This document shows positions 1,864 to 38,114 of a DNA stretch of 64,000 nucleotides, piece after piece. Position 1 is the stretch's first letter, and every line of letters starts with the position of its first letter. The position numbers were made by a program, and so were the translations under genes. The stretch lies in the NCBI GenBank assembly GCA_026874595.1, contig CM049309.1, positions 24,493,033 to 24,557,032 on the forward strand, read 5' to 3'. The notes beneath the pieces are model-generated. The model did no database searches. It was not told the DNA's origin and worked only from the letters and a program-made list of their open reading frames with translations. Origin of the DNA: Sipunculus nudus (Eukaryota > Annelida > Sipuncula > Golfingiida > Sipunculidae).

Positions 1864-2035
1864 CACCAAGTTTAGCAGCCAGCATGACAACGGGGAGAAT
1901 TTCATTAAGTCCAGCCTGGCGAGCAGCATCTATCTGACAATAGTCCACGGCCTTTCCTTGAAGAAACTGTTTGAACATGATACGGTTCTGACAGGCTTCC
2001 CCAGTGGCTACTCCTATTCCTAGAGGTTGTAAAGC
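1864..2035 (-). CDS. ENOSF1: ENOSF1 coding exon 13
   Basis: 172 nt: [20 protein letters not shown], then [20 protein letters not shown] and [21 protein letters not shown] supplies the third metal ligand and QID the next barrel carboxylate. Acceptor ATTCCAG, donor GTATGT, exits phase 1. No CPHAGG-type exon is visible in 1-1863, so the next exon lies outside the window. Confidence 0.94.
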
Positions 2036-17000: not shown

Positions 17001-20000
17001 CAGGTCTCACTGAATGCTACCCCATGTCTCACCAAGGGGTTACAGGTCTCACTGAATGCTACCCCATGTCTCACCCAGGGGTTACAGGTATCACTGAATG
17101 CTGCCCAATGTCACACTCAGGTGTTACAGGTCTCACTGAATGCTACCCCATGTCTCAATCAGGTGTTACAGGTCTCACTGACTGATGCCCAATGTCACAC
17201 TCACGTGTTACAGGTCTCACTGACTGATGCCCAATGTCACACTCACGTGTTACAGGTCTCACTGACTGATGCCCAATGTCACACTCAGGGGTTACAGGTC
17301 TCACTGAATGCTACCCCATGTCTCACCAAGGGTTACAGGTCTCACTGAATGCTACCCCATGTCTCACCCAGGGGTTACAGGTCTCACTGAATGCTGCCCA
17401 ATGTCACACTCAGGTGTTACAGGTCTCACTGAATGCTACCCCATGTCACACCCAGGGGTTACAGGTCTCACTGAATGCTGCCCAATGTCACACTCAGGTG
17501 TTACAGGTCTCACTGACTGATGCCCAATGTCACACTCAGGTGTTACAGGTCTCACTGAATGCTACCCCATGTCTCACCCAGGGGTTACAGGTCTCACTGA
17601 ATGCTACCCCATGTCTCACCCAGGGGTTACAGGTCTCACTGAATGCTGCCCAATGTCACACTCAGGTGTTACAGGTCTCACTGAATGCTACCCCATGTCT
17701 CACCAAGGGGTTACAGGTCTCACTGAATGCTGCCCAATGTCACACTCAGGTGTTACAGGTCTCACTGAATGCTACCCCATGTCTCACCCAGGTGTTACAG
17801 GTCTCACTGAATGCTACCCCATGTCTCACCCAGGGGTTACAGGTCTCACTGAATGCTGCCCAATGTCACACTCAGGTGTTACAGGTCTCACTGAATGCTA
17901 CCCCATGTCTCACCAAGGGGTTACTGGTCTCACTGAATGCTAACCCATGTCACACCCAGGGGTAACAGGTCTCACGGAATGCTGCCCAATGTCACACCTA
18001 TGGTTACAGGTCTCATTGAATAATTTTTATTAAGTTTTAGCAGAAAAGTTATGTTGACCATGCTCATACAAAGACTATTACCAATGTCATTAGCAATGGT
18101 TCTGCCTTCACTTGAATCCAGCAACATTATTCTTTGCAAATCAATTTTGTATATCCTAAGAAATACCATCTTCAGACATATTAATTAAGACACACTGCCT
18201 GTTTTTACAATTTACTGCTGCAGTCAAACTTTTAACCATTAGGGCCATTTTTCAAAAAGAATTAATAAGCCAATTGTCAATTATGTGTCCATGATGGCAG
18301 TGATACATCGTTCAATGAATTATGGATTGTTTGTTAGGCTGTAGTGTCCAATCAACTATTAGTTAGGCTGTAGTGTCCAATGGACTCACAGAAAGAGTGT
18401 AGTTTCGAATGAACACACAGCAACCCATTTTAGTCACTTTACATTATGGCAACTTGCCCTAAACTTTTTTTTATTTTATCAATGCATAATATAATAACAT
18501 TTAGAAATTAAAAAAGAAATTAGGCATATTTCACTGTGTTCTATAAAAAAGATCTATCATTTGGTTTGATACAATAACAGACCCCACTCTCAGACATGGT
18601 AAATTTATCTGATGTGGCATGCAGGTCCTGTATTTATTGGGGACATATTCACCAGGTGACAGTGTAGACCTGCTCTACTGAGTGAATGTATATGACACCT
18701 GTACTCACATGTAGTTGAACACCATGCAGGAAGCAAGCTTCTCTGGCTCCTGATAAAAAACACAATCATTTGACATTCACAAACTAAACCGACATCTTTG
18801 CAAGTTTAATTTCAAAGTTTACAACAACAGCACATCATCATACAATCCTTCAATGCTATAAATAGAAATCTGCATTCAAAGGAATGCAAGCCTCTGCCAT
18901 GTATGTGGGGGTTTCATAAAACTCCATATGGTATGATGCTCCAATAAATGTGTTTCCATTCACTTATTTAGCATACATTCCCAGGTTCATTTATGTGTAA
19001 CTGACTGTTAATTTGTGAATATTCATTTATGATGTTCATGAATCCAAATCAATTGCTTGATCAAGACCAAAATCTTATTGATTCTTAATTGGGCTATTCC
19101 TGAAACGTGAATTTTATGAGTTTCTATTCATGATAGTGTAAGTTATGTGTTGGAGAAACATTCACACTAACACACACACAAGCACACACAAACACACACA
19201 ATCACACAAACACACACATTAACACACACACACACAGACACACACACAAATGGGCATTAATGCCTACCCTGCTGGTGGAGGTTATAAGATGCCTCCATGA
19301 CCACTTACAAAGTACTTCATAATCAGTACAAATAATGAATTGTTTCATGCACAGACATGTAGACAAGAGGCCAGTAGTACACACTGCATAAGACATTGTA
19401 CCTACCAACTAATTATTACATAAATTTTCTGTTCTTGCATTGTGGTTTGATAATGACAGTCCTTTCGTATTGGTGTCCACTAATTATATCTATTTATGGA
19501 GAAGCTTTGCCATATGTGAATATATATTCTATAATTTATAATAAAACTCTCTTGTTTTCTTACAGACACTGTTTTACCTTTTTTATAATTTAAGGAAATA
19601 TGATATAGTACACTATTTTATTATCCCATTGGGTTCAAGACAACAAATTAAAGTTTTGCTCGGCCATCTACCTCTGCCAGAACAAACATGTTATATAAGT
19701 ATACCATTGTCACATTACTATACCGACAGCCTGACCCCACATAACACTGTCACATTACTACACCTACAGCCTGACCCCCACATAACACTGTCACATTACT
19801 GTACCTACAGCCTGACCCCCACATAACACTGTCACATTACTGTACCTACAGCCTGACCCCCACATAACACTGTCACATTACTGTGCCTACAGCCTGACCC
19901 CCACATAACACTGTCACATTACTATACCTACAGCCTGACTCCACATAACACTGTCACATTACTATACCTACAGCCTGACCTCCACATAACATTGTCACAT

Positions 20001-23000
20001 TACTATACCTACAGTCTGACCCCCACATAACACTGTCACATTACTACACCTACAGCCTGACCCCCACATAACACTGTCACATTACTATACCTACAGCCTG
20101 ACCCCCACATAAACACTGTCACTATACTTTTTTAAATTATATAATACGTCTGCTGCTAATGCCTTATTTTGGATTCCCCAGGTCTTACGCTTTTAAAACG
20201 TGCCACATCTACAGACGGACAGACGGACGGAGAGACAGATGGGTGACGGACAATTGACCAGGACTATGGCTCAGATGACTTTTATTCAGCTGAGCAAAAA
20301 ATTAAAATTTCAAATTTATGTGTTTAAAACATTATAGATTCTTTTTTTTAGAGTATTATGCTATTTCCCAAAATGTCTTGTTTTTATAAATTAAGTTGTA
20401 TAGCAATACAATCAAACTCATGACACATCTTAATTGTTCATAGAGTAAGTACTGCCCGTCTTCCAAATTCTAAGATTTTTACTACATGCATGCATCCTTA
20501 AATAACTCATTATATGGAGTGCATCCCCTTTGCTAGTGCATGGTGTTTTATGCAGTGCATTCTACCACAAGGTCCACTGGGACAAATATGTAACAGAGTG
20601 CCACTGTAGGATTTTTCCCACACATAATAGAAAACAAGACAAGAATTTAAGTTTAAAATCACCAAATTGCCCTATTCAAGCCCTAGCGAAAGAGTGGCTT
20701 TTTGCAGCCTGCTCTAGGCCAGCCTACTTTACAATAGGGGTGGCCTATTAAGGGTCAGTCCAAATGTAGATAAGACAGGTGGTAGGTAGGCCTGATATCT
20801 TGCACTGCCTCTTGCAGGGAGCAGTAATTGGACAAACTCATGTTTTCTTATGTAATCTGTAATGGTTCTGTTATTTAAGGAACAAGCTGAAGTTCTGTTA
20901 ATTTTGAGGCATTCTTATTCAGTTTTCAATGCCAGAACAGGATTTGAATACAATTTACATTTGATTCTTTTATTGTCATTTATTTACAATAATTGATATA
21001 TTCACTTACCCTCAATTACTGTTATCAATTTTCTGTTATCATATGCATGATTCAGCTACATATTAATCATTAATAAAATCTTAAGCTTACTTGCACATGA
21101 TGAACACCTGAGTTGATAAATCAGCCCACAGGTGATATTACATCTACATACTTTACACTCGTCTTTCTGATGCTCAACTGTGAACATTTTATCTGTGGCA
21201 CTATTGGAAGATTAGACAGGACAGGAATGAAATGATACCGTACAAGTACCAATAAAGCTGCTGAGATAATGAGGATTTACTGTGAGCCATGGTAATATCA
21301 AAACGATCACACACAGAACTGGCAGAAACAGGAACTTACCATATCAGCAAGAAGCTTCCACAGTGGCTGAAAGTTGGATGGAGAAAAGCCTGGTATAATG
21401 CATATTACCTATCATATTCTATTTATCTCTGAAATATAATATCCTCAAAGAAATAATTTATTTGTATAATATTACTCTGCTGTAATTTACATATAAATAA
21501 TTAAAAAAAACAGCTCTTACTCCTAACCAACAGAAGTTATTCTGGAAAATTATTTTAATTTTTGACATTTCATACATTTCAAAACCATAAACTGTGGGAC
21601 ATGACACAAAGCTAGGAACCATAAATCTGAAAAAAAACACAAACATAAAACAAGGACACTACAAGAGTGTATAACTGGCCATGAGTTCCATGTCTTGTGG
21701 ACATTGACCTAATTTTTACTCATCAAGTAAAGTTTGCATAGAATTGAATTCAGGTGGGTAACTCTATTGATAAATATTTTTAGTGCATTTCATAACAAGG
21801 GACCCATGGGTCACATTGCTCAGCTGAATTTTGGAAAATATTAGTAACTGCAAAATGCTTTTATTTCTTTTGTTTTTTCATGTATATTATCATTTGTAAA
21901 GCTATGAGAAAATGGCCCTGCTAAGATGTGAAAATGAAACTCTGTAAATTATAGAATAATGGACATGAGCTAAACCATTTAGTGATGCACCAAGGGAAAA
22001 AATTGGCCTACGGTAAGTGTTATATAAAAGTAACATTTTATAAACAAATAATGTGTGAGGTAATTAAGTTTTCAAAAGTTAAATATATGGCCATGTGAGT
22101 TAAAAATTAATCCCACAAAGTTTGACCAATATTCCTAATTTTAATACTAAGTTAACAGTGTTATTACACCTAGGCCCTGCCAACTTTAAGAGATATGAAT
22201 GAAATGCTACAAAGTATTTATCTTCTTAAATCTTGTCAGTTAGCACTTACATTAGATCCTAATATTTTATCAAATTTTAATATAAGGATTAAATTCCTGA
22301 ACATTTTTTTTCTTTAAAAAATCAAAATTGTCCAAGTCTAATCAAGAAGAATTTATTTAACATTAAAATTATAAAATTCATCATGTTTATTAGTCCTGTA
22401 TATTGAAGGGGTAGGTGGGGTGAGGGGTCTCTGTTGTTACTGCTCGTTGCTGAAAAAATGTTAATTATACGATTCATCTAGTTCATAGTACAGGTCTGTC
22501 AACAGAATGGGGAGAGAAAAAGGCTCCCTGTGGTATTAACTGCAGACAGCCTGATCAAGCTCAACTCAGTTGAGAGAGGGCTTGCCCTGGTGATGGGATT
22601 ACATAACATTATGCCACTGAATGACCTACAGTGACCAAAGTGGACTGCTCAACAATGTAAGAGAATACAACAAGAGCCTAAAAACATTCAATAACTACCC
22701 TAATTTTGCAGCTTTTATTTTATAATTTTCAGATTTAACAGATTAAATCCTTATGTGTACATGCTGTGAAAATTTAGTCCATAGTACTTACAGGAAAAAA
22801 ACGTGCCGTGGCCATAGATGGGCAAAATTTAAGGTACCAATTTTTTATTTTTGCTAATATTTTAAAAAATTTAAAACATTTTGATCTAATTTTGGGTATA
22901 CAATTTAGTTTTGATTAATTAAAGTTATATTACTGGAAAAAAGTCTTTAGCTTTAAAGTCCTTTAAGGGAATACAACAAGAGCCTAAAAAAAATTCAATG

Positions 23001-26000
23001 ACCAGCCTAATTTTGCAGCTTTTATTTTCATATTTCAGATTTTAACAGATTAAATCCTTATATGTACAAGCAGTGAAAATTAAATCCACAGTACTTACAG
23101 GAGAAAAAACCTGCTGTGGCCAAAGTTGGGCAAAATTTAAGGTACCAATTTTTTATTTTTGCTAATATTTTAAAAAATTTAAAAGATTTTGATCTAATTT
23201 TTGGTATACAATTTAGTTTTGATTAATTAAAGTTATATTACTGGAAAAAAGTCTTTAGCTTTAAAGTCCTTTAAGGGAATACAACAAGAGCCTAAAAAAA
23301 TTTCAATAACTAGCCTAATTTTGCAGCTTTTATTTTCATATTTCAGATTTTAACAGATTAAATCCTTATATGTACATGCAGTGAAAATTAAATCCACAGT
23401 ACTTACAGGAAAAAAAACGTGCTGTGGCCAAAGTTGGGCAAAATTTAAGGTACCAATTTTTTATTTTTGCTAATATTTTAAAAAATTTAAAAGATTTTGA
23501 TCTAATTTTGGGTATACAATTTAGTTTTGATTAATTAAAGTTATATTACTGGAAAAAAAGTCCTTATCTTTAAAGTCCTTTAAGATAATACAACAAGGGC
23601 CTAAAAAAATTTCAATAACTAGCCTAATTTTGCAGCTTTTATTTTCATATTTCAGATTTTAACAGATTAAATCCTTATATGTACATGCAGTGAAAATTAA
23701 ATCCACAGTACTTACAGGAAAAAAAACGTGCTGTGGCCAAAGTTGGGCAAAATTTAAGGTACAAATTTTTTATTTTTGCTAATATTTTAAAAAATTTAAA
23801 AGATTTTGATCTAATTTTGGGTATACAATTTAGTTTTGATTAATTAAAGTTATATTACTGGAAAAAAAGTCCTTATCTTTAAAGTCCTTTAAGATAATAC
23901 AACAAGGGCCTAAAAAAATTTCAATAACTAGCCTAATTTTGCAGCTTTTATTTTCATATTTCAGATTTTAACAGATTAAATCCTTATATGTACATGCAGT
24001 GAAAATTAAATCCACAGTACTTACAGGAAAAAAAACGTGCTGTGGCCAAAGTTGGGCAAAATTTAAGGTACAAATTTTTTATTTTTGCTAATATTTTAAA
24101 AAATTTAAAAGATTTTGATCTAATTTTGGGTATACAATTTAGTTTTGATTAATTAAAGTTATATTACTGGAAAAAAGTCTTTAGCTTTAAAGTCCTTTAA
24201 GGGAATACAACAAGAGCCTAAAAAAAATTCAATAACTAGCCTAATTTTGCAGCTTATATTTTCATATTTCAGATTTTAACAGATTAAATCCTTATATGTA
24301 CATGCAGTGAAAATTAAATCCACAGTACTTACAGGAAAAAAAACGTGCTGTGGCCAAAGTTGGGCAAAATTTAAGGTACCAATTTTTTATTTTTGCTAAT
24401 ATTTTAAAAAATTTAAAAGATTTTGATCTAATTTTGGGTATACAATTTAAATTTGATTAATTAAAGTTATATTACTGGAAAAAAAGTCCTCAGCTTTAAC
24501 ATGTTTTGTGTTAAGTGATCAAATATCTTTCCTGATTTTTCACAAAATGCATTATGTTTGAGCCCGTAACTTTTTAAAATTAAATAATACAGACCTAATT
24601 TCTGGCATGTACATAGGAACTATATAGAGGAATATTTATGGTAAATATGAGGAAAAACAGATGAGTGGTTTTGATATTAGGCAGTCCTGAAGTGTGAAAA
24701 TAGGTTTGTAAAAAAAATTGAGGTTTTTCCTTAATTTCTCAAAGGAAGGAAGTCGCAAAGACCCAGTTTTAGGCTTGGTAGGAGATCTTGGAGACATCTA
24801 ACATTATGCCGAATTTTGGAATCCTAGATCTTACGGTTTCAAAACGTGCCACATCTACGGACGGACGGCAGGACAGACGGACGGACAACAGACAATGGAC
24901 CACGACTATAGCTCAGATGACTTATAGTCAGGTGAGCTAAAAATCCATCAAATTATTGTTATAAAGTCATCATGGTGCCATCACAGTCTGGTGTCTCTTA
25001 CATGCCCACCTTAACTATAAATTTCAGTTTTTGCATCAAGAACACATTTTAACTATGATTTAATAAATATAAAGAGAAGTTAATCTAAATATAACACATA
25101 TATTTCCTCCAGTTTGTCAGATGTCTGATTAACTGGATTGACCAGGCCTTGTTTAACTTAATCTTATATGGTATTACCTTTCCTTCAATCCTTGCCCAAA
25201 GGTCCCACAAGGCATTCATTATGGCAGCTATGGCTAAATGAACCACTCCTTTCTCAGGCCCAAGCTAAAAAGTAAAAGAGGCAAATTATGTTGATGGACT
25301 ACATCAACGTAAGAGAACTCTTTACATTCTAAAAACAACTGTGTCAACAAATTACATGAAGGATTTTCAAAATATTATTATGAGAAATCCCTTGACAAGT
25401 ATTAGAGTAGTGGCTTTATGGCCCTTAATACTCAGCTTAAGTTGACTCATTACTGAGGCTTCCCAATTCAGGAGATTATGCAAACTAATCCTTAGATATT
25501 AACATGGATGTCTGGCACATGAACATGAATGTTAGTGGTGCCACCTGTCATAAAATCAAGAAAGCTATCAAGGATAGATACACATGCAAAATTTCAAGTG
25601 GGCAAGTAAAACTACTGCAGAGATATTAGTGATTTTAACCCAAGGCAGATAAACAAATGTATGGACATTGCAGGTGGCACCACCAAATTTATTGTATGAT
25701 ATAAAGCTATCCAAGAGCTACATTCATGGAATATTTCAGCCCAATTAATCAAAAAAGTCAGAAGATATGTGAGTAAAGGTGTGAAAACAAATACACAGAT
25801 GCAAGCATTGCAGAGAGGAAAGGTCAGAGGTCAATGCAAAATGGTGAGGCACCAGTTCACACGGGAGCTGATAATGAGGTACAGTTTCAGAAAATTTGGT
25901 CCTGTGGTCTCAGCAGAACCTTGTCAAAAAAATGGTATCTTTGGCAGATACACTGAAGCTGAACTATTTCCTGGCTTATCACTCTTACATTATTATCCTG

Positions 26001-29000
26001 ACTAACACTTACCCATCTCATTTGTGGTTCTTGTACAAGCTCATTCCAAAACCCAGAAAAATCACTGAAAATGTCTTCAAGCTTCCTGCCAACAATCATT
26101 GGGACATAAGACTGAACAGCTAAGCAAACTGCAACATAATCAGTGGGGAAAATGAATGCACAGCTAAGCACACTGCAATACAATCTATTGGAAATATGAC
26201 TTCACAGGTAAGCACACTACAATACAATCAATGGGGATAGGACTGCACAGCTAAACAAACTGCAACAAAATCAATGGGCTATTTGACTGCACAGCTAAGC
26301 ACACTGCAACACAATCAATGAGGAAAATGAATGCACAGCTAAGCACACTGCAACATAATCAATGGATTATTTGACTTCACAGCTAGGCACACTGCAGCAT
26401 AATCAATGGGGAATACGACTGCACAGCTTAGCAAACTGCAACACAATCAATGGGGAATATAACTGCTCCGCTAAGCACATTGCAACATAATCAAAGGGGA
26501 ATACGACTGCACAGCTAAGCACACTGCAATACAATCAATGGGGAATATGACTGCACAGCTAAGCAAACTGCAACACAATCAATGGGGAATATGACTGCAC
26601 AGCTAAGCACACTGCAACAAAATGAACAGGGAATATGAATACACAGCTAAACAAACTGCAACACAATCCATAGGGAATTTGTCTACACAGCTAAGCACAC
26701 TGCTTTTTTCAATGGGGAAAATGACTGCACAGCTAAGCAAACTGCAACATAATCAATGGATATGTGGACTGTACAGCTACGCACACTGCAATACAATTTA
26801 TTGGGAATGTGACTGCACAGCTAAGCAAACTGATTAAATAAATGGGGAATATGACTGCACAGCTATGCAAACTGCAATTAAATCAATGGGGAATATGACT
26901 GCACAGCTCAGCACATTGCAACACAATCAATTGGGAATATGACTGCAGAGCAAAGCACATTGCAACATAATCAATGGGGAATATGACTGCACAGCTAAGG
27001 AAACTGCTACACAATCAATGGGGAATATGAATGCACACTTATCACACTGCAACACAGTCAATAGGGAATACATATCCACAGCTAAGCAAACTGCAACACA
27101 ATCCATAGGGAACATGACTGCACAGCTAAGCACACAGCAACATAATCAATGGAGAATATGACGGCACAGGTAAGCCCATTGCAACATAATCAATGGGGAA
27201 TACAAATGCACAGCTAAGCACACTGCAATACAATCAATGGGGAATATGACTGCACAGCTAAGCACACTGCAACACAATCCATGGGGAATATGACTGCACA
27301 GCTAAGCACACTGCAACAAAATCAATAGGGAAAATGACTGCACAGCTAAGCAAACTGCAACATAATCAATGGATAATTGGACTGTACAGCTAAGCACACT
27401 GCAATACAATTAATGGGGAATATGACTGCACAGCTAAGCACACTGCAATTTATTCAATGGGGAATATGACTGCACAGCTCAGCACATTGCAACACAATCA
27501 ATTGGGAATATGACTGCAGAGCAAAGCACATTGCAACATAATCAATGGGGAATATGACTGCACAGCTAAGGAAACTGCTTCACAATCAATGGGGAATATG
27601 AATGCACACTTATCACACTGCAACACAGTCAATAGGGAATACATATCCACAGCTAAGCAAACTGCAACACAATCCATAGGGAACATGACTGCACAGCTAA
27701 GCACACAGCAACATAATCAATGGAGAATATGACGGCACAGGTAAGCCCATTGCAACATAATCAATGGGGAATACAAATGCACAGCTAAGCACACTGCAAT
27801 ACAATCAATGGGGAATATGACTGCACAGCTAAGCACACTGCAACACAATCCATGGGGAATATGACTGCACAGCTAGGCACACTGCAACAAAATCAATAGG
27901 GAAAATGACTGCACAGCTAAGCAAACTGCAACATAATCAATGGATAATTGGACTGTACAGCTAAGCACACTGCAATACAATTAATGGGGAATATGACTGC
28001 ACAGCTAAGCACACTGCAATTTATTCAATGGGGAATATGACTGCACTGCTCAGCACATTGCAACAGAATCAATTGGGAATATTACTGCACAGCTAAGCAC
28101 ATTGCAACAAAATCAATGGGGAATATGACTACACAGCTAAGCAAACTGCAACACAATTAATGGGGAATATGACTGCACAGCTAAGCACACTGAAATGATC
28201 AATGGGGAATATGACTGCACAGCTAAGCAAACTGCAATTTAATCAATTGGGAATATGGCTGCACAGCTCAGCACACTGCAACACAGTCAATAGGGAATAC
28301 GAATGCACAGCTAAGCAAACTGCAACATAATCAATTGGGAATATGAATGCACAGCTAATCACACTGCAATACAATCTATTGGGAATATGACTTCACAGCT
28401 AACCACACTGCAATACCACCAATGTGGAATATGTCTACACAGCTAAGCACACTGCAACACAATCAATGGGGAATTTGTCTACACAGCTAAGCAAACTGCA
28501 ACACAATTAATGGGGAATATGTCTACACAGCTAAGCAAACTGCATCATAATCAATGGAGAATATGACTGCACAGATAAGCACACTGTAACACAATCAATG
28601 CGGAAATTGTCTACACAGCTAAGCACACTGCAACACAATCAATGGGGAATATGACTGCACAGCTAAGCAAACTGTACATAATCAATGGGGAATATAACCG
28701 CACAGCTACACAAACTCGTTACAATCAATTGGGTATAAGAGCCAGTGGTGTGTAAAACTACAGAGGCACTATGCACAGCAATAGTTTCACATAACAGATA
28801 AAGCTTCAATGCACATATTATTGAGAACTGGTGTTTTTTTCTAAATTCCAATTTAATATATGTATTTGATAATTCAAGTTTTACTTATTAATCATATTTA
28901 AAAAAAATATAGAATATCACATAAACTGAACACATTTTAAAGAACTTGTTGGCCTGAGTTTGTTCAAATCTACAGTGACAGGAATATGTGTCTGGTTAAG

Positions 29001-32000
29001 TACAAGATGATGATCAAATGAAAAACAGTAGTTTCTTTGCTAATATTGTGACAAAATTCATTCTCAAAAAATACACTGAAATAATTGAAGGCTATAAGAT
29101 GGATATAACTATCCAGGAATAAACAGTGTAAATTTCCAGACAAATTCTTGCATAAAAGAGTAATAATGTTTTTGTTTAAAGTTTAACTTAAAATTGAACA
29201 AATATATATAGTGGAATACCACAACTCATGGTGAAAAATGAATCGTCAGTGATGCTAAAATTTCAGAAGAGTCTGACTTTCAAGGTGCACAAAAAAATAC
29301 AGTATACTGTAACTAAAGTGAAATTAGGATTAGAGTAAAACACTAAGGGATGAAAATGAAAATGTGGCATTTTTTTGTAATCACTGACAAATATACAGCA
29401 ATTATTTCAATATTCTAACAAGCAATAATATATTATGTTTATAACATGCCCTAAGTATCATACCTATCTCATTTCCACGCCCAATGGTAAAAGTCAATCC
29501 ATACCCCTCCTGTCCTGTGTCAGTTGTCAGTATGACATAAGCACAAGAGTAGTCTGGGTCATTCTGTAAAATATAACAAAAGATCAAGCAATTATTTATT
29601 AGTGATATTGTCAATTAAGCACAGTATTACAGATCATTAAAAAGGATGTGAACATATGGAGAGAAAATAAAGGTGAAGGGCCCTCAGTTGAGAAACATGA
29701 ACAGACAAACCAGGATAATACATCTACCTGGCAGCAGCTTTGTTGTCTTGGTCCTTATGGCATTCTGTGGATGAACTTTTTTGTGGATGAAAATTTTTTT
29801 GTCACTGTAAATGTTACATGTATGTTGTATCTTTGTAATTTTACTGGGTATACTGTATTGTTGTTTTTCTTTATCTTTTAATGAGTAAAAATATTGAAAA
29901 TAATGCAGATATACAAATTATGCAAAACTGTAAATGGTCCATTCAATGCTAAATATAAAGAAATACATATGCAACTAGAATACGGGTAGTCGACAGGCGA
30001 CTACTTGTATCCACCTATATCAGAGTGGAACGGGTGAAGTGTTGCATATTAGCATGGATGTCTGCAGCCAAATTGTGTATGTAGGTTGCGCTACCTATGA
30101 AAAAATCCAGAAAGCTCTATACACATGCAAAACTTTGGCCCAATCGGTCAAACTGTTCCAAAGATATGAGCTTGGATATCTGCTGCATAAACTAGAATGC
30201 AGGTGGCGCCACCTGTCATAAAATCAAGAGAGCTGTCGGGGATGTATAAACTTGCAAAATTTTAGGCAGATATGTCAAACCACTGCCGAGATATGAGTGA
30301 TTTTATCCCATGGCAGACAAACAGATGGGAGCTGTGCAAACATGGCTGCAGATGGCGCCACCAGTTTTGCATATGATAAAGAGCTATGTGAGATTTATAC
30401 ACATGCAAAATTTTGGCCCAATCGGTCAAACGGTTCCCTAGATATGAGCTTGGATGTCTGCAGCGTAAACTTGATTGTAGGTGGCGCCACCTGTCATAAA
30501 ATCAGAAAAGCTATCCAGGATGTATAAGCATGCCGAATTTCAGGTGAATTAGTCAAACCACTGCAGAGATATGAGTGATTTTAACCCAAGGCAGACGAAC
30601 AGATGGACACTGTGCAAACATGGTTGCAGGTGGTGCCACCATTTTTGCATATGATAAAGAGCTATGTGAGATTTATACACATGCAAAATTTTGGCCCAAT
30701 CGGTCAAACGGTTCCTGAGATATGAGCTTGGATGTCTGCAGCGTAAACGTGAATGTAGGTGGCGCCACCTGTCATAAAAATTTTAGGCAGATATGTCAAA
30801 CCACTGCCGAGATATGAGTGATTTTATCCCATGGCAGACAAACAGATGGGAGCTGTGCAAACATGGCTGCAGATGGCGCCACCAGTTTTGCATATGATAA
30901 AGAGCTATGTGAGATTTATACACATGCAAAATTTTGGCCCAATCGGTCAAACGGTTCCCTAGATATGAGCTTGGATGTCTGCAGCGTAAACTTGATTGTA
31001 GGTGGCGCCACCTGTCATAAAATCAGAAAAGCTATCCAGGATGTATAAGCATGCCGAATTTCAGGTGAATTAGTCAAACCACTGCAGAGATATGAGTGAT
31101 TTTAACCCAAGGCAGACGAACAGATGGACACTGTGCAAACATGGTTGCAGGTGGTGCCACCATTTTTGCATATGATAAAGAGCTATGTGAGATTTATACA
31201 CATGCAAAATTTTGGCCCAATCGGTCAAACGGTTCCTGAGATATGAGCTTGGATGTCTGCAGCGTAAATGTGAATGTAGGTGGCGCCACCTGTCATAAAT
31301 TCATAAAGCTATCCAGGATGTATACGCATGCCAAATTTCAGTTGAATTAGTCAAGTCACTGCAGAGATATGAGTGATTTTAACCCAAGGCAGACAAACAG
31401 ATGGACACTGTGCAAACATGGTTGCAGGTAGCGCCACCATTTTTGGTGTATGTTATAAAGCTCTCCAAGGGCTACATTTGTGCAAAAGAATTTTCCTGAT
31501 CGGTCAAACGGTTCTCGAGATATGACCTTGGATGTCTGCAGCGTAAACGTGAATGTAGGTGGCGCCACCTGTCATAAAATCAGAAAAGCTATCCAGGATG
31601 TATACGCATGCCGAATTTCAGGTGAATTAGTCAAGTCACTGCAGAGATATGAGTGATTTTAACCCAAGGCAGACGAACAGATGGACACTGTGCAAACATG
31701 GTTGCAGGTGGCGCCACCATTTTTGGTGTATGTTATAAAGCTCTCCAAGGGCTACATTTGTGCAAAAAAATTTTCCTGATCGGTCAAAGGGTTCCCGAGA
31801 TATGAGCTTGGATGTCTGCAGCGTAAACGTGAATGTAGATGGCGCCACCTGTCATAAAATCAGAAAAGCTATCCAGGATGTTTACGCATGCCGAATTTCA
31901 GGTGAATTAGTCAAGTCACTGCAGAGATATGAGTGATTTTAACCCAAGGCAGACGAACAGATGGACACTGTGCAAACATGGTTGCAGGTGGTGCCACCAT

Positions 32001-35000
32001 TTTTGGTGTATGTTATAAAGCTCTCCGAGGGCTACATTTGTGCAAAAAAAATTTCCTGATCGGTCAAACGGTTCCCGAGATATGTGGGTTTATGTGTGGA
32101 AACATACGCACAAACAGACGCAGAGCGCAAAGGAAAGGTCAGAGGTAAAAACAAAATCGGGGCGCAGCAGTTCACATGTGACCCAAACATAATCCCGGGT
32201 TTGGAAAATTCCGCCCAGCGGTTACGGAGGAGTTCTCCGGACACCTACGCGGCGGCGGCGGCGGCGGCGTGCAGCAGAAAACATAGTATCCGCAAAACTC
32301 TGTTTTGGCGGATACAATAACAGAATATGATATTATATATATATATATATGTAAATGTTTGATTCCATGATTACATTTGCCAGGTTATCACGGTTTGTTA
32401 ACATATTGCCAACATTAGTGAGGGTGTGGATATCTATTCATCAACAGTAACATACAAATCAATAACAATAATTTGGTGATAAGAAAGCAGGCCATGTCGT
32501 TTTGAGTGCAAATAAACTAGTGCAACAGATGTAGTGTGTGCTTCAGTCAGACTGTATAAGTAGTTCATGTGTGTGGATGTGGGGAGAGGGGGTATCCCCT
32601 GCTTTATTGACACCTCAGTAAACTTTTCAAATCTTGGTCTCTCATTTGAAGTATGAACATATTAGAATATCCTAGAAATCACCCTAAACATCACAAAGAT
32701 TCATCATGTGGCCAAATCAAATATAAATATCTACCTAGCCACAGCAGCACAGCACATACATATACATGTTGTTTGTGGCATGTTATATAGGACTCTGATT
32801 TATAACTCATGCACTTTTATATCAAAATGTAAGTTATTAATATGAACTTGACCAACATAGAATTGTTTCATTTACTATACAGCCAGTGCACATGACAAAT
32901 CTGACACATCAGTAATTAAGCTTATGTGCAATGCTCACAGTGGAATGTGATACATGTATATTATCCAGCCAGAGGTGCTCTTTGGATTATTTTAAGTACG
33001 GGAACCTCCAATATGCAGGGCAGCAGGATTAATCCTGGCTGGGCTCCTTAAAACAAATCGAGCATTAACTGTGTCTACCGTAGGTGCATTATGCCGGCAC
33101 TTTCTGCTTCAACTCAACAATTCAGCCTCTATTCAGGAATGGAGTCTGAATACCTGTGGGGAGAGTTCCCCTTTGGTTCAACACATCCCCAAATTGGACT
33201 CTCGTGCAAATTAACAATAACAGTAGTATTTATGAAAATTACCTAAAAACATGCGATGGATGGTGGTTTCTTCACAGATCTCCTTTGCTTAAGAACAGAA
33301 CCTCCCAAGCCTTCCCAGTCCCACCAAACCTTGCCAGGAATAAAACAATAGCTAATGGAGGTACCTGGTTTTCTTAAGAGGTAAGTGCCAGTATTTTCAT
33401 ACATACTGAACATGAACTTAAAAACAAGGGACCCATGGGTCACGGCGCTCAGCTGATCGTGATTGGACTATAAATGTTTCTCCACTGTGATACTATATTG
33501 AGTCGATAAAGCTTATGAAAATCATGGACATGTTGGGCTATTATAAAGGAATGTAATGTAATATGTGAGTAAATGATAAATGAAATTACCTGACTGATGG
33601 ATTAATAGAGTCAAATAAAGTGGTTTATTTTTTATTAATTTAGGAGGGGTTGAAAACTGTGATATATTTGAGCAAATATGAATGCAGTGACAGCAGTACT
33701 AAGCAGTAGTAGAATGATGATAAGGCTATTTGTTGAAGGATCTAAAGTGTATGGTAGTCTGCAAGCGTTCAATTTGACAGATATGATGTTATGATTAACT
33801 ATGCTGATGAAGTGATTTATGAATATGTGACTGTATGACACAATATCTCTTTAGTCTTGACAAGGAACATTATTGTGATGCCCACTATGTCTACATATTA
33901 CACAATATTGACATAATTTCTGGCATGTACATAGGTACCTATGGACGAATAGTTATACAAAATATTAAAGTATGAATATATCTGATTCATCTTGTTCTTG
34001 CTTACTGAGGCTGACTTTGGGATGGGGTTCAGAGAAGGGAAAAGTGAGGGCAGCACGAAGGTGGATGTAGAAATATTCTATTGTAATGTTTTTTATTTAT
34101 ATAAGAATATGAAAAGCTAAGAGGAAAGGGGCCCTCCTACTTGGTTATAGTAAAGTTCTAAATATATGATTGCAAACTAATACTCTGACAAGACTGTCAT
34201 GAAGAAAAACAGTAAAAGTTTTGAGATACTGTGTTGCATACGAAAATTTACAGATGGACAGGCAAGTGGACAGAATGGACTAATACCTTTATTTCACTTT
34301 CAAGAGAATAATGCATTTAAGTTTATATATAATCCTATTTTTTTAAGCAGATCCACTTTTTCCATTAAGAAGTTTTTATCTGAATCATTTTTTTATTTAC
34401 AGGTTTATAAATTTTTAATTAAAAAACCTGAAACTAAAGGGTTAAAATATTGGAATTGTTGCAAAAGTTGCAATCATTATATATACAGAGTAAAAAACAT
34501 TGGGTCATATTATGCATACACATATATTTTATTATTTTTAAATCATAAATGTTTAAACTGATTTTAAAAGAAAATAATGCCACAACATGGCATCTACAAG
34601 AATATTCCTTGAATCACTATTAAAAAGTTTTGCACATTGGAGTTTTCAGGACATGCTTAATTTTATTCACCAAAATAAAATAAAAGTAAATTTGATAAAA
34701 TAAAACATCTTTTCAAATAAAGTATACACACTGTTGGTTGAATGAGGGACAAACAATATCATTGTGCTAATTACTATCCCAGTTTTAATTTATTACTGGA
34801 ATTAATAGTCAATTTCACACCTGGTGAAGTTTTTACTCTTCTGAAGTAAGGAATTACTTATCTCATGAACATCTACACATTCACAGCAATACACCACTTT
34901 GTGGACACAATTAAATGTACATTTTAATCATTGTAACCCTGGTGGTTCAATACAAAATCTAAAATGTAGCATGTCCAAGAATAAAATAAAATACAGAAAA

Positions 35001-36491
35001 ATTATAACATTCATCTAGTTTATGCACCAGCTGGGGGGGATGAGTGCAGGGCAGAGGGGAAGCCTGCTAGTAGTGGCCAAGCTAGGCCAAGGTAAGCTGC
35101 CTGGGGTGGGTTACATAATGCAAGTGAAGGCTGTACTACTAGGTGGGCTAGATGTAAACAACACTTGACATGGTGTATGAAAACATGAATAAAAGCTATT
35201 CATTCCAATCAATTTCTTTTGAAAGTTCAGATTTTAAAGATCAAATCCTTATGCATATATGCTGGGAAAATTAAATCAACAGTGCCAAAGTTGGACAAAA
35301 TTTAAGGTATTGATTTTTTATTTATGCTAATAACTTGAAAAATTTGCAAAATTCAGATCTAATTTTGGGTAATATTGAATCTTGATTAAATAAAGTTATA
35401 TTCCTGAAAAAAAGTCTCTAGGTTCAGCAATTCTCATGTTAGGTGAGTAAATATATTTCCTGATTTTTTAAAAAATTGCATTATGTTTTGGCCCATAACT
35501 TCAAAATAATACCCAATACTGACCTAATTTTTGGTATGTTCATAGAAAACGTATAAAAGAATGTGAATACTAAATACAATCAAAAACAGATCAGTGGTTT
35601 TGATATTAGGCAGCCTTGAAGTGTAACAATGGCTTTTTTTATGGAAAACATAGTTTTTTTTCCTTAATATCTCGAAGGAACAAAGTCCTAATGACCCAAT
35701 TTTTGGTATGGTAGGAGATTTTGGGGACATCTAAAATTATGTCAACAGCCTGGGGAGCATAGAGATATGCACTGAATGACCTACAGTCATCAAAGTGGAC
35801 TGCTTGACAATGTAAGGGAATACAACAAGAGCCTCCAAAAAAATTCAATAACTAGCCTAATTTTGCAGCTTTTATTTTCAAATTTCAGATTTTAACAGAT
35901 TAAATCCTTATGTATGCATGGTGTGAAAATTAAATCCACAGTACTTACAGGAAAAAAACGTGCCATGGCCAAAGTCGGGCAAAATTTAAGGTACCAATTT
36001 TATATTTTTGCCAATATTTAAAAAAATTTAACAAATTTTGATCTAATTTTTGGTATACAATTAAATTTTGATTAATTAAAGTTGTATTACTGGAAAAAAG
36101 TCCCTACCTTTAACACTTTTGGTCTTAAGTGACCAAATATCTTCCTGATTTTTTTACAAAGTCCATTATGTTTGGGCCCATAACTTTTTTAAATTATATA
36201 ATACTGACTTAATATCTGGCATGTACATAGGAACTATATAGAGGAATATTTATGGTAAATATGAAGAAAACCAGATGAGTGGTTTTGATATTAGGCAGTC
36301 CTGAAGTGTGAAAATAGATTTCTAATAAAAAATTGAGGTTTTTCCTTTATATCTCGAAAGAACAAAGTCCTATTGACCCAATTTTTGGCATGGTAGGAGA
36401 TTATGGGGACATCTAACTGTATGCCGAAATTCAGATTCGTAGGTCCAACGGTGTGGAAACGTGCCAGTCTTACGGACGGACATCCAGACGG

Positions 36492-36546
<55 letters not shown>

Positions 36547-38114
36547 GACGGACGACAATGGACCATGACTATAGCTCAGATGACTTATAGTCAGCTGAGC
36601 TAATTATGTCCTGAGTCAATACAGCTGTATTATGTGTAATATGTAGGAGTTGTTTCATGTCCTCACACCAAACACCGAATATTGTGGTCTTAACCACTTT
36701 GGTCAGATCTGACCAAGCTTTAGAGGGTAAAGTCTCTGCCTTAAGGCCTGTAACACTAAACAAGAAAAGACAATTTAAGATTTGTTTGTGTTACAGGCCT
36801 GTAGCTATGTTTGCTTCAGTCTGAAAAAAATATGTACAACAAGGGCCAATGAATGGAGAAAAAAATGTGGCCCAGGCTATCCCTCCCCACTTCTGTTAAT
36901 AAAATGGTCCTAGACCCAGCTGTGGCTCTGTATTAAACAAGTACAGATCCACAGGTCACTGCCTTTGTTTATCTATAGTCCATTTCATCCCCTCATGTCC
37001 ACCTGTTTTTTGCTATGAAAATTTTTATTAGGTACATTTCAAGGGAAACAATTATAGTGTACAGGAGAGGATTACAGAACCTAATTTTCAACAATGTAAC
37101 TAAATTCCTACTTTATGCCATATTTGAGTTACAGAATTTTCTGAAAATATGAGAAATCAGTCTACATTTTACAACATATCAGACCCACTTATGGCGGTCA
37201 AGGTCATTGTTCACATGCAAAAACAGCCTGAACTGACAGCTGCTGATTGGATAATCTCATGTAAACACTCTAAAAAATATAACCAACAAAAACAAAGATG
37301 GCTACTTATGGAGGGACACACCATATCTGCCAGATCATGATAAAGAGACTAAAATGTTGTGAAACATAAACGGGGGATTTATTGTAAAATTCTAAACTGC
37401 CATATTAGGTTGTCACTTCCTTGTGTTGTCTACTTGGAAAATATTGAAAAATATAAACTTTTAAGTAAATCATCCACAAAAAACAGGTGGACAGCAGATG
37501 GTGAAATGGACTATAGCAGACGGGATTAATGCATGCATCCTCTGAGGATGGTGAGCCAGGGTGATTGTTTCAACCAGCGTTGTGCAATTTGACACATGCA
37601 CCTGGCTGAAACAATCCAGTTGTAAACCTGGTAACAATCGGTGTAGCCAGTGGTCCATTACATGGACACTCACAGCAGTGATGATGTAACACGTTCACTG
37701 CACTTCGTTGGCTGAAGCAATCGCCCGGTTCACCGATAAGATGTACTTAACGTGGGTGCATCGTCAGTATATGCATCCGTTCCGGTCCGCTAGATAAATG
37801 AAGGCAGCGACCTGTGGCTGTGTGTTTACAACAGAGCCACAACCGAGTCTAAAAATGGTCCCGCCTTAGCGACTGCCTGCCACTCCAAAGGTCGATTTTT
37901 TAATGAACTGAAGACGATGGCCCGTTTGTTTATTTCAGAAGCCTGCGTTTCATGTTGCCATGGCTAGTACCGCCCCTGAGGTGTGTATTTTTTTAATAGC
38001 TGTTTACACTTACAGGCATCCGTCACTTACAATTGCATCGGATCCATCTCCCTCTAAAGAAGTCGGGAACCGGACATCCTTGACACTGAGGGAAGAAACC
38101 CTGGACGGCTGCAT
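1864..38114 (-). CDS. ENOSF1: ENOSF1 gene, enolase superfamily member 1 (13 coding exons, C-terminus outside window)
   Basis: Mitochondrial enolase-superfamily enzyme of the mandelate-racemase group. The family's known reaction is Mg2+-dependent dehydration of L-fuconate to 2-keto-3-deoxy-L-fuconate. I joined 13 exons by homology and splice phase: 38031-38114, 29464-29563, 26013-26128, 25178-25264, 21340-21366, 18709-18749, 11847-11878, 11188-11226, 8442-8524, 6933-6967, 5670-5757, 3462-3596, 1864-2035. These give 1039 nt, about 346 codons, with no stop and every phase matching. Visible active-site elements are the KxK motif (K217/K219 in FKVKVG), metal ligand D247 (DANQRWD), E273/E274 (WIEEP), E302 (ATGE) and D325 (QID). 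The His of the CPHAGG motif lies further left. The animal protein is about 440 residues, so roughly 100 are missing here. Introns total about 35 kb and hold most of the window's tandem arrays. Family assignment is very secure; only a few exon edges could shift by a base or two. Confidence 0.95.
2184..2473. repeat. 21-bp minisatellite in ENOSF1 intron 12
   Basis: About 14 head-to-tail copies of AAGTCCAAGTCCTCACCACTC-type units with very few variants (CCTCACC/CATCACC, AGTCC/AGCCC). Because 21 is a multiple of 3, open frames run through it on both strands (SPSPHHS; DLDLSGE). Eroded fragments of the same motif recur at about 2843-2945. Confidence 0.93.
2474..3461. other. ENOSF1 intron 12 remainder
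   Basis: AT-rich. It holds only decayed TCAAGTCC-like motifs (to about 2945). Otherwise I see nothing. Confidence 0.4.
3462..3596 (-). CDS. ENOSF1: ENOSF1 coding exon 12 (metal-binding exon)
   Basis: 45 codons containing [20 protein letters not shown] and [14 protein letters not shown]. The D of DANQ and the E of WIEEP are two of the three carboxylate Mg2+ ligands of the superfamily. Acceptor TTTCAG, donor GTATGA, both phases 0. Confidence 0.95.
4230..4880. promoter_or_regulatory. promoter-like CpG-rich island inside ENOSF1 intron 11
   Basis: About 650 bp markedly richer in G, C and CpG than the AT-rich intron around it. It holds a GC box (GGGCGGAGCC, about 4730-4740) followed within 60 bp by two reversed CCAAT boxes (ATTGG at about 4765 and 4777). 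The remaining intron sequence, 3597-4229 and 4881-5669, shows nothing else. It could be an internal promoter, an enhancer or a transposed promoter-like fragment. Confidence 0.35.
5670..5757 (-). CDS. ENOSF1: ENOSF1 coding exon 11 (KxK motif)
   Basis: 88 nt: (R)[15 protein letters not shown], then [14 protein letters not shown]. It carries the second-strand KVK motif, whose lysine acts as general acid/base in this subgroup. Acceptor CCACAG, donor GTAAAC. Confidence 0.94.
6619..6662. repeat. short perfect-stem hairpin in ENOSF1 intron 10
   Basis: GCCATGTTCA ... TGAACATGGC arms continue with AATAATAAT/ATTATTA pairing, giving a stem of about 18 bp around a short T-rich loop. It sits in otherwise featureless AT-rich intron (5758-6932). 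Confidence 0.6.
6933..6967 (-). CDS. ENOSF1: ENOSF1 coding exon 10
   Basis: 35 nt reading [11 protein letters not shown] and the first two bases of Arg, matching LC.QALKDGWTR. Acceptor TTTCAG, donor GTAATA, phase 0 in and 2 out. It joins exactly to exon 11 to give IRFKVKVG. Confidence 0.88.
6968..8441. other. ENOSF1 intron 9
   Basis: AT-rich. The only structure I see is a 33-bp direct duplication (TGGACAGTAGTGCAGGGTCA, twice, about 7782-7848). No exon or RNA gene recognised. Confidence 0.45.
8442..8524 (-). CDS. ENOSF1: ENOSF1 coding exon 9
   Basis: 83 nt: (E)[19 protein letters not shown], then YSDSKIKR, matching the [15 protein letters not shown] segment that opens the catalytic barrel domain. 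Acceptor TTTTACAG at 8525-8526, donor GTATGT. The 49-bp minisatellite begins immediately upstream, within the acceptor's pyrimidine tract. Confidence 0.93.
8527..11065. repeat. 49-bp minisatellite abutting ENOSF1 exon 9 acceptor
   Basis: About 51 head-to-tail copies. Plus-strand unit phrases: AACAGGGACAACAGAACATG, then GTCATGTAATACAGCATGG and ACCTCAATAG. Variants (TAATAC/TTATAC, AGCATGG/AACATGG, ATGGTC/AAGGTC) are interspersed. The unit nearest the exon, 8531-8580, is the most diverged and runs into the exon 9 acceptor tract. Confidence 0.95.
11188..11226 (-). CDS. ENOSF1: ENOSF1 coding exon 8
   Basis: 39 nt reading (E)[12 protein letters not shown], the basic linker equivalent to ILQKGQIGKKERE. 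Acceptor TTTAG, donor GTAATG, enters and exits phase 1. A short exon of purine-rich codons, supported by phase and position between two certain exons. Confidence 0.85.
11227..11846. other. ENOSF1 intron 7, no feature seen
   Basis: About 620 bp of low-repeat DNA. I see no exon, RNA gene or tandem structure. Confidence 0.45.
11847..11878 (-). CDS. ENOSF1: ENOSF1 coding exon 7
   Basis: 32 nt reading (M)[10 protein letters not shown], matching ITDVLTEEDALE. Acceptor TTCCAG, donor GTAAGT, enters phase 2 and exits phase 1. The 42-bp minisatellite lies in the intron just upstream. Confidence 0.87.
12322..18018. repeat. 5.7-kb minisatellite, 42-bp unit, in ENOSF1 intron 6
   Basis: About 135 copies of a 42-bp unit opening GTTACAGGTCTCACTGA. 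Three unit classes alternate: GAATGCTGCCCAATGTCACA, GAATGCTACCCCATGTCTCA and GACTGATGCCCAATGTCACA, with further tails CTCAGGT, CCCAGGG and CTCACGT. Local higher-order blocks of 4 units (168 bp) are visible around 14.2-14.9 kb. A 42-bp unit preserves reading frame, so open frames of up to about 400 codons occur in several frames and on both strands; they are not genes. It is the largest single structure in the window. Confidence 0.97.
18019..18708. other. ENOSF1 intron 6, right flank
   Basis: AT-rich. It shows a small local duplication, TTAGGCTGTAGTGTCCAATC, at about 18334 and 18362. Nothing else recognised. Confidence 0.4.
18709..18749 (-). CDS. ENOSF1: ENOSF1 coding exon 6
   Basis: 41 nt reading [14 protein letters not shown], matching DPRMLVSCIDFRYI. 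Acceptor ATCAG, donor GTGAGT. It exits in phase 2; the ATG codon of the last Met is split AT|G across the 6.8-kb intron 6. Confidence 0.87.
19162..19251. repeat. (CA)n-rich microsatellite
   Basis: Interrupted ACACACAC tract within ENOSF1 intron 5. Confidence 0.85.
19702..20125. repeat. 41-bp minisatellite in ENOSF1 intron 5
   Basis: About 10 copies of CACATTACTATACCTACAGC followed by CTGACCCCCACATAACACTGT, with single-base variants. Ends abruptly before a T-rich stretch. Confidence 0.93.
20160..20305 (+). mobile_element. 3' end fragment of dispersed hairpin-tailed repeat
   Basis: AAACGTGCCACATCTACAGA, a GGACAGACGGACGGA tract, then CTCAGATGACTTTTATTCAG and CTGAGCAAAAAA. The same ending occurs at 24840-24945 and 36440-36603. 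Confidence 0.6.
20306..21339. other. ENOSF1 intron 5, left part of transcript order
   Basis: AT-rich, apparently unique DNA. No exon, RNA or repeat recognised. Confidence 0.4.
21340..21366 (-). CDS. ENOSF1: ENOSF1 coding exon 5 (27-nt microexon)
   Basis: Nine codons, PLWKLLADM, filling the family position PVWKLLVDM exactly. Acceptor TTTCAG, donor GTAAGT, both phases 0. It is supported only by homology, splice sites and phase, because it is too short to be seen as an open frame. Confidence 0.85.
21367..22660. other. ENOSF1 intron 4, non-array part
   Basis: AT-rich. Contains one fragment starting GGGACCCATGGGTC at about 21800, the 5' terminus of a dispersed element seen again at 33429, 48608 and 63611. 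Otherwise nothing recognised. Confidence 0.4.
22662..24490 (+). repeat. 306-bp tandem array inside a dispersed element
   Basis: Six copies of a 305-310-bp unit, each opening AATACAACAAGAGCCTAAAA (about 22665, 22973, 23278, 23587, 23896, 24205). Inner copies are nearly identical; outer copies are more diverged. The same segment occurs once at about 35818-36130. Confidence 0.93.
24491..24945 (+). mobile_element. 3' part of the dispersed element carrying the 306-bp array
   Basis: Continues from the array exactly as the related copy at 36105-36603 does and ends in a GGACGGAC tract. A terminal hairpin follows: TAGCTCAG...GTGAGCTA with inner TGACT/AGTCA arms (24909-24939), then an A-run. Confidence 0.65.
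25178..25264 (-). CDS. ENOSF1: ENOSF1 coding exon 4
   Basis: 29 codons: [20 protein letters not shown], then DLWARIEGK, matching [23 protein letters not shown], one of the best conserved stretches of the family. Acceptor TTTTTAG, donor GTAATA, both phases 0. Confidence 0.93.
25497..25960 (+). mobile_element. 5'-truncated, old copy of the AACTAGAATA element
   Basis: Matches the element core (GGATGTCTG, GTGGTGCCACCTGTCAT, GGAAAGGTCAGAGGTCAA) and ends in a decayed version of the 3' hairpin (GGTATC...GCAGATAC). It lies in ENOSF1 intron 3, ending about 50 bp from the exon 3 donor. Confidence 0.55.
26013..26128 (-). CDS. ENOSF1: ENOSF1 coding exon 3
   Basis: Encodes [20 protein letters not shown], then [19 protein letters not shown], equivalent to the family's V.AV.ALAHHVL...D..GDFRGFYR.L...QLRW segment. 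Acceptor GTTGCAG at 26129-26130, donor GTAAGT. The first 30 or so bases of this exon and its acceptor are the end unit of the 44-bp minisatellite upstream (see findings). Confidence 0.92.
26100..28740 (-). repeat. 44-bp minisatellite derived from the ENOSF1 exon 3 acceptor
   Basis: About 60 copies. In transcript sense each unit reads roughly TTGATTATGTTGCAG, then TGTGCTTAGCTGTGCAGTC and ATATTCCCCA. The last unit is the genuine exon 3 boundary: GTTGCAG|TTTGCTTAGCTG, continuing TTCAGTCTTATGTCCCA. Variants include GCAAACTG/GCACACTG and AATACAATC/AACACAATC. A 571-bp higher-order duplication lies within it (about 26.88-28.04 kb). Confidence 0.95.
28741..29463. other. ENOSF1 intron 2, upstream part
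   Basis: AT-rich DNA between the exon 2 donor and the 44-bp array. Nothing recognised. Confidence 0.4.
29464..29563 (-). CDS. ENOSF1: ENOSF1 coding exon 2
   Basis: Encodes [20 protein letters not shown], then [13 protein letters not shown], matching the DPDYS...TFT.GRG.E segment of the enolase N-terminal capping domain. Acceptor TTTTACAG, donor GTATGA, entry phase 0 and exit phase 1. Intron 1 on the upstream side is 8.5 kb and holds element copy B. Confidence 0.92.
29973..32317 (+). mobile_element. hairpin-ended non-autonomous element, copy B
   Basis: Full-length and the longest copy. It starts AACTAGAATACGGGTAGTCG and ends GGCGGATACAA, with a 3' hairpin GTATCCGCAAAAC...GTTTTGGCGGATAC (32286-32315). 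Alternating half-units, one holding AGGTGGCGCCACCTGTCAT and one holding GCAGGTGGCGCCACCATT, repeat through the core. A 521-bp block is exactly or nearly exactly duplicated (30287 and 30808). Near the end lies a (GGC)n stretch. It sits in ENOSF1 intron 1. Confidence 0.65.
32318..34560. other. ENOSF1 intron 1, middle
   Basis: AT-rich. Holds a short (TA)n tract (about 32331-32350) and a GGGACCCATGGGTC-type element end at about 33429. I see no exon; open frames here are AT-rich chance frames. Confidence 0.4.
34566..34945 (+). repeat. dispersed repeat, paralogue of 54437-54990
   Basis: Shared phrases in the same order: AATGCCACAACATGGC/AATGCTACAAGATGGC, TTGGAGTTTTC, AATAATATCATTATG-like text, CTTTGTGGACACA and TTTTAATCATTGTAACCC. 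The other copy carries an extra small TIR element. Confidence 0.6.
35200..36603 (+). mobile_element. dispersed hairpin-tailed element with single 306-bp segment
   Basis: Related end to end to 22.66-24.95 kb, but with the 306-bp segment once (35818-36130) plus a more decayed copy at 35220-35420. Ends with a (GGACAGAC)n-like tract (36470-36556) and the terminal hairpin TAGCTCAG...CTGAGCTA (36572-36602). Confidence 0.65.
36604..37640. other. ENOSF1 intron 1, exon 1-proximal part
   Basis: AT-rich, mostly unique-looking DNA that passes into the more CpG-rich region around exon 1. No feature recognised. Confidence 0.4.
38031..38114 (-). CDS. ENOSF1: ENOSF1 coding exon 1 (start codon)
   Basis: 28 codons beginning [16 protein letters not shown] and ending GSDAI before GTAAGT. 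DVRFPTS followed by GSDA is the conserved N-terminus of ENOSF1. The ATG at 38112-38114 has A at -3 and G at -1. An in-frame TAG lies seven codons upstream, so this is the first possible Met. The exon sits in a CpG-richer stretch than its surroundings, as expected for a first exon. No obvious mitochondrial presequence precedes the conserved part. Confidence 0.88.

Follow-up and report, generated by a model that had tools for sequence, protein, structure and literature searches.

Minisatellite-like tandem copies of exon-intron boundaries, called mirages, have been found in amphioxus, in Adh3 and in the globin genes BflGb6 and BflGb9, as set out in the available passages of PMC3087553. In these passages, RT-PCR of the globin and Adh3 mirages suggests that regular splicing is undisturbed, and the mirages change length between haplotypes, with 6 and 3 copies in the BflGb6 haplotypes (PMC3087553). 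For Drosophila, the accessible part of PMC2891723 describes how introns are gained or shifted when exonic sequence that holds a proto-splice site is duplicated in tandem, and a similar tandem duplication of exonic sequence is described for potato RdRp in that of PMC4974935. Among the titles and abstract openings listed from an open-access collection, boundary minisatellites are described only for amphioxus; MSY2 of DDX3Y, which carries a start site, and the arrays inside intron 1 of earthworm metallothionein appear in the passages at hand without description as boundary copies. The amphioxus Adh mirages are said to be the subject of an Adh paper of 2002 as well, and Turri et al. reportedly described in 1995 a minisatellite with multiple splice donors in the human interferon-induced 6-16 gene.

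The locus analysed here is an ENOSF1-like gene on the minus strand of a 64,000-nucleotide stretch of Sipunculus nudus contig CM049309.1 (the window), in which 15 exons were located (our own numbering; Table 1). Exon 1 is known from a tblastn match alone, near 38114. The protein, joined by hand from the exon translations, contains the MR_MLE_N and MR_MLE_C domains, and its closest solved structure is human ENOSF1 (4a35, E 1.2e-33), followed by related bacterial enzymes such as L-fuconate dehydratase. The gene occupies a single locus, as three of three exon matches fell at one place in the searched genome (1,426,538,692 bases in 153 contigs, of which 15 large ones measure 61 to 111 Mb). In a search for the mollusc-type haemocyanin domain PF14830 no match came up, though its own control gave none either. 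Splice-site use is predicted from protein length and frame. Four consecutive exons are tiny (27, 41, 32 and 39 nt at window 21340-21366, 18709-18749, 11847-11878 and 11188-11226), with introns of about 0.6 to 6.8 kb between them.

Table 1. Positions of the gene, its boundary arrays and their parts. Positions are those of the window unless a locus is named; a slash marks a splice junction.
Feature	Position	Strand	Remarks
ENOSF1-like exons 1-12 in the window	1864..38114	-	exon 1 by tblastn match only
Exons 13-15	neighbouring 20 kb, beyond window position 1		loci L012/L013
ENOSF1 exon 2	29464..29563	-	ends GAGATAG/GTATGA, phase 1
ENOSF1 exon 3	26013..26128	-	116 nt; starts in phase 1; ends AGATGG/GTAAGT; predicted from protein frame and homology
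ENOSF1 exon 9	8442..8524	-	our numbering
44-bp minisatellite	26086..28740	-	59 intronic units, one unit within exon 3 and a diverged partial distal copy
Exonic copy of the repeat unit	26086..26128	-	first 43 nt of exon 3; codons complete with the last base of exon 2
Putative functional acceptor AG	26129..26130	-	TTATGTTGCAG/TTTGC; from frame and homology
58 upstream units with decoy ends	26173..28714	-	AG in 47; the real acceptor forms the end of the following unit (26172-26129)
Duplicated 13-unit block	26883..28053	-	571-bp shift, 99.5% identical over 600 bp
Possible oldest copy or former acceptor	28715..28759	-	CTGTAG, then 43 nt up to the next unit; weak
49-bp x 51 array	8551..11051	-	upstream of the exon 9 acceptor; last unit heads for TTTTACAG/AGGCCC
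Exon 14 donor-side array	L012:1-5333 and L013:6190-10000 (C4, beyond window position 1)		45-bp unit, about 204 copies

Exon 3 lies between TTGCAG and GTAAGT and presently contains GATTGTTGGCAG. Joined exons 2 and 3 align without gaps from NEI onward with human ENOSF1 (4a35) and two bacterial enzymes (alignments of three of the seven matches). Frame from exon 2 and this alignment predict the exon 3 start at 26128, in agreement with the junction that an earlier note on this DNA had drawn.

The 44-bp array runs uninterrupted from exon 3 into intron 2, its edge lying inside exon 3. TRF reported it at 26092-28708 with a period of 44, 59.7 copies and 82% matches, and unit-by-unit wrap-around alignment yielded 60 units, the last one inside exon 3 (26128-26086), in a count that leaves out the diverged partial copy at the distal end (28740-28715). 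The units measure 44 nt in 52 of the 60 cases, 43 nt in five and 42 nt in three. Neighbouring units share a mean identity of about 0.77 (gaps not counted); for units 13 apart the value is 0.83, with 14 pairs at 0.95 or above. The duplicated 13-unit block is probably a recent change of array length, unless it is an assembly error. Length instability between alleles is suggested, from the one genome at hand, by this internal 571-bp duplicate at 99.5%. A genome search with the unit listed 27 matches, the query included, and as all those listed fall in this array a dispersed satellite is ruled out, within a search that skipped very common words and gives a lower bound.

That exon 3 begins elsewhere, or that the array is an assembly artefact, has hardly any probability in our estimate. 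Tandem arrays are prone to misassembly, and the 13-unit duplicate is the part most open to doubt, but collapse or stutter would not make units as diverse as those above, and the junction is fixed by the protein alignment together with the reading frame carried over from exon 2.

Comparison of the first 43 nt of exon 3 with the array consensus revealed 36 identities in 44 columns; eight columns differ, one of them a gap, and most array units carry one base more than the exon copy. The alignment score of 27 was reached by none of 2000 dinucleotide shuffles (z 10.8), which rules out chance similarity, whereas two control stretches of exon 3 scored 9 and 8 and were matched by 141 and 225 of 2000 such shuffles. 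Unit-exon identity over the 43 nt is far above that of shuffled sequence, and the sharing between the unit and the intron 2/exon 3 junction that the earlier note had pointed out is borne out. For its further suggestion, that conversion between array and exon could alter the coding sequence, there is no evidence, and conversion from array to exon was rejected, as the exon shows no length change against distant homologues; its copy also differs from the consensus in the eight columns mentioned.

The reverse course, in which an unrelated minisatellite spread into exon 3 and overwrote its first 43 nt, is very improbable. The overlapped protein stretch is, by eye, among the less conserved parts of the alignment, but the human and bacterial enzymes also differ there, the length is unchanged relative to both, some conserved residues are kept, and among the matches listed (a lower bound) the unit is found nowhere else. 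Length and frame of exon 3 match the human and bacterial enzymes gaplessly, and therefore the exon would be the older sequence.

Twenty-seven internal boundaries of the gene were compared by the best second copy of the boundary-spanning 36-mer within 700 bp. A background of 19-24 of 36 was found at 24 of the 27 boundaries, and three stood above it: the exon 14 donor (36), the exon 3 acceptor (34), where the unit contains the intron-exon boundary sequence, and the exon 9 acceptor (27). Shuffles in this test, in the exon 9 tests and in those of other arrays keep base composition only; those for the 43 nt of exon 3 keep dinucleotides. Beyond the region covered by the earlier note lie, at the donor of exon 14, a further clear boundary array and, at the exon 9 acceptor, a borderline third.

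The exon 14 array comprises 203 full 45-bp units over about 9.1 kb, with GTAAGT in 192 of them. The last 45 nt of exon 14 form one unit (41/45 match) that starts with GTAAGT, and before this unit the homology ends (10/45). From the real donor onward, and counting it, GTAAGT occurs 191 times, 164 times in frame, and 146 of these would give a stop-free extension; the array is open in the frame of the exon for about 2241 codons.

At exon 9, the similarity of the junction to the 49-bp array was reached by 2 of 2000 plain shuffles, the intron side by 30 and the exon side by 1693. The best score of this array against exons is 15, no higher than the 95th percentile for shuffled units (15), and most of its units read (C/T)TATTG where AG would stand. 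On sequence grounds it is a borderline candidate for a boundary array. In the same exon-match test the 44- and 45-bp arrays scored 49 and 67. Arrays of 42, 41, 23 and 21 bp near the gene scored 11, 11, 12 and 11 against its exons, at 95th percentiles of 14, 14, 12 and 12, and a 66-bp array was marginal (15, with the 95th percentile of shuffled units at 14); clear exon sequence is absent from all five.

Further repeats of the region are recorded here in their own right. The 42-bp array, with about 136 copies at window 12328-18021, lies in an intron of the ENOSF1-like gene, and its unit matches no exon above shuffled units; 42 is divisible by 3, and open frames of at most 405 codons run through it on the plus strand, antisense to the gene. 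A 308-bp repeat with 6 copies at 96% is situated between exons 4 and 5 (window 22658-24499). A tandem repeat family of about 280 bp with GGTGGCGCCACC or a close form occurs at window 265-945, 30118-32084, 44490-45116 and 55133-56534, also in locus L015 and probably in L014 and L024 (those two judged by period and wording), and resembles a dispersed tandem element.

The same kind of test was applied to kinase exons at other loci of the genome. The sample of 58 loci was hand-picked for partial-domain exons out of 138 matches listed and is not random, so that any rate drawn from it is a guide only; 95 p450 matches were left out of boundary testing. The 36-mer test covered all 58 loci and their 116 match edges, 700 bp each way or less in short loci and with low-complexity words dropped, and TRF covered 40 of them. 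HMM match edges lie only near the true exon edges, and 111 of the 116 scored 25/36 or less. Exon-bearing tandem copies were found in two cases. In L023 (368-4943), the kinase exon ends SEPYSTK/GTAGAT and is followed by a donor-boundary array of 71 full 65-bp units, 66 of them with GTAGAT; by eye, the unit consists of about 22 nt of exon and 43 nt of intron and spans the boundary. In L050 (665-770), an exon which we take to be GSK3-like from its motif begins with LYMYQLFRSLA, and one degenerate copy of this acceptor, its AG lost, lies 68 bp upstream in the intron (28/36; score 20, where 1000 plain shuffles reached 18 at most). L016, which also reached 28/36, was rejected as CTA-like simple sequence. 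Repeats adjoining exons in L015 (a 40-bp array) and L036 (a 120-bp repeat) show no exon sequence. In L037, an AT-rich stretch adjoins the exon.

The earlier note had read the exon 3 unit as the acceptor sequence plus about 30 coding bases. The shared junction stands, but the exon share amounts to 43 nt, and the unit is best read as derived from the exon end. The point turns on nucleotides 30-43 of the exon (ATGATTGTTGGCAG), whose counterpart is TGATTATGTTGCAG just before the acceptor. Taken alone and out of register, this stretch is not significant, its score being equalled by 110 of 2000 dinucleotide shuffles. In register, 12 of 14 positions match with one gap; 34 of 200000 random 14-mers do as well, and none of the 947 other coding 14-mers of the gene. 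Therefore we take the entire 43-nt exon start as one unit, and the likely acceptor would thus sit at the junction of two repeat copies. We are less sure of the all-exonic origin of the unit than of its boundary origin, since the match of nucleotides 30-43 holds only in register.

An ordinary boundary-spanning mirage, whose founding unit covered roughly intron position -13 to exon position +31, is an unlikely but serious alternative, under which the match of nucleotides 30-43 would stem from an older seeding short repeat or from chance. It has the architecture of the amphioxus cases and of L023, where about 22 of the 65 unit bases are exon by eye, and is consistent with the out-of-register failure of nucleotides 30-43; the in-register match at 34 in 200000 argues against it, as does the clearly all-exonic array (41/45) at the exon 14 donor of this gene.

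Frame and homology predict as the likely acceptor the last of the unit ends with AG that precede the exon body, as had been proposed. The proposed choice among roughly 60 near-identical AGs holds in so far as 47 of the 58 upstream unit ends keep AG, but the whole array contains 154 AG dinucleotides. Frameshift through 44-nt steps, which the earlier note expected for most upstream copies, gives way to a simpler outcome: from all 154 in-array AGs the frame would hit a premature stop before the end of exon 3, and therefore use of an upstream acceptor would ruin the message. By a simple, generic acceptor matrix, the real acceptor is the weakest among 11 scored acceptors of the gene and is equalled or exceeded by 53 of the 154 AGs in the array, so that selection by strength is rejected on this matrix. 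The AG-free stretch before the real site measures 35 nt, longer than in 41 of the 47 decoys and equalled by six, which rules out an AG-exclusion zone as the selector. No local feature measured, neither matrix score nor AG-free stretch, distinguishes the real acceptor, and closeness to the exon body and donor is likely to be the reason for its choice.

These decoys might make the array a regulator, its copy number setting decoy use and hence the amount of ENOSF1 via stop-containing transcripts. We regard this as improbable. It is in line with the AG kept at 47 of 58 decoy unit ends and with the 53 AGs that match the real site in score, among 154 that all lead to stops; but the amphioxus mirages, in the passages available, seem to splice normally (PMC3087553), and the exon 9 array, if related, mostly lacks AG at that place.

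By its sequence, the exon 3 array classes as a mirage, with the boundary in its unit, continuity with the authentic boundary and AG kept by 47 of 58 upstream unit ends. Probably, in our view, it is a minisatellite of the mirage type that grew in tandem from an exon boundary; a role as tolerated passenger is most likely, rather than one as regulator. In the mechanism that we propose, an early tandem duplication would have copied the end of exon 3, and would have been tolerated because the copied segment ends in its own acceptor-like motif, TTGGCAG/G (codons V-G-R). The junction between the copies would then serve as splice site, the extra copy would turn into intron, and unequal exchange would enlarge the array. 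Today, exon definition would most likely lead the spliceosome to match the last unit end to the donor that follows 116 nt downstream, which we propose because sequence strength alone fails to pick out this unit end. Nonsense-mediated decay, an established pathway, would remove transcripts spliced at upstream copies, which contain a stop codon.

The exon 14 donor, with the same architecture as the exon 3 acceptor, speaks for this mechanism. Three points count against it. The distal array end holds no clean former acceptor: 28715..28759 is repeat-like from TCTTAT on, and the 17 nt before TCTTAT do not align to the unit. For the first step, the original AG, which comes first, would have to be passed over by the spliceosome. 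In addition, L023, the clearest kinase case, has a boundary-spanning and not an all-exonic unit.

The same mechanism suggests which exon ends could give rise to such arrays. Tandem duplication of an exon end would do no harm only where the intact exon continues to be spliced in. A boundary-spanning unit, as in L023 and amphioxus, would always allow this, and an exon-only unit would do so only with a splice motif of its own at the inner end. Both clear ENOSF1 arrays carry one: TTGGCAG (GGCAG) ending at +43 in exon 3 and GTAAGT at -45 in exon 14. Judging from these two boundaries, the own motif of the exon segment would let extra copies be spliced out. More tentatively, and with less than even confidence, we suggest that motif-bearing exon ends act in this lineage as self-licensing minisatellite seeds, whose duplicates would be spliced out at once, so that decoy arrays of tens to hundreds of copies would accumulate and splice choice would depend on where a site lies with respect to the exon body and not on its sequence; translation of the exon 14 array, as a protein repeat of 15 residues, would even be conceivable.

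New here are the second clear array in the same gene, at the exon 14 donor, the borderline exon 9 case and the two kinase cases. They suggest that mirages also occur outside amphioxus. A natural experiment on splice-site choice is offered by a single gene whose decoys, 47 acceptor unit ends and about 190 donors, resemble the real sites; the birth of a minisatellite may be tied to a tolerated exon-end duplication, and introns may have a route to lengthen with copied coding sequence.

Like the array described here, the human 6-16 minisatellite reportedly repeats a functional splice site, although its unit is said to be short and on the donor side. The genome here comprises 1.43 Gb, against about 0.5 Gb for amphioxus. 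As in proto-splice-site duplication, in the part available of PMC2891723, a piece of exon that bears a splice motif of its own appears to have been duplicated and one copy to have become intron, whereas the copies here seem to join an existing intron and go on to a long array. The likeness to the amphioxus mirages, in the passages available of PMC3087553, extends to tandem copies of the boundary on the acceptor or donor side, many of which keep a decoy AG or GT, and to edge copies that are less homogenised than those in the middle. Compared with the cases in those passages, the arrays here are larger, at 60 and about 204 copies where the two BflGb6 haplotypes have 6 and 3; one gene contains two clear cases, and their units are apparently wholly exonic.
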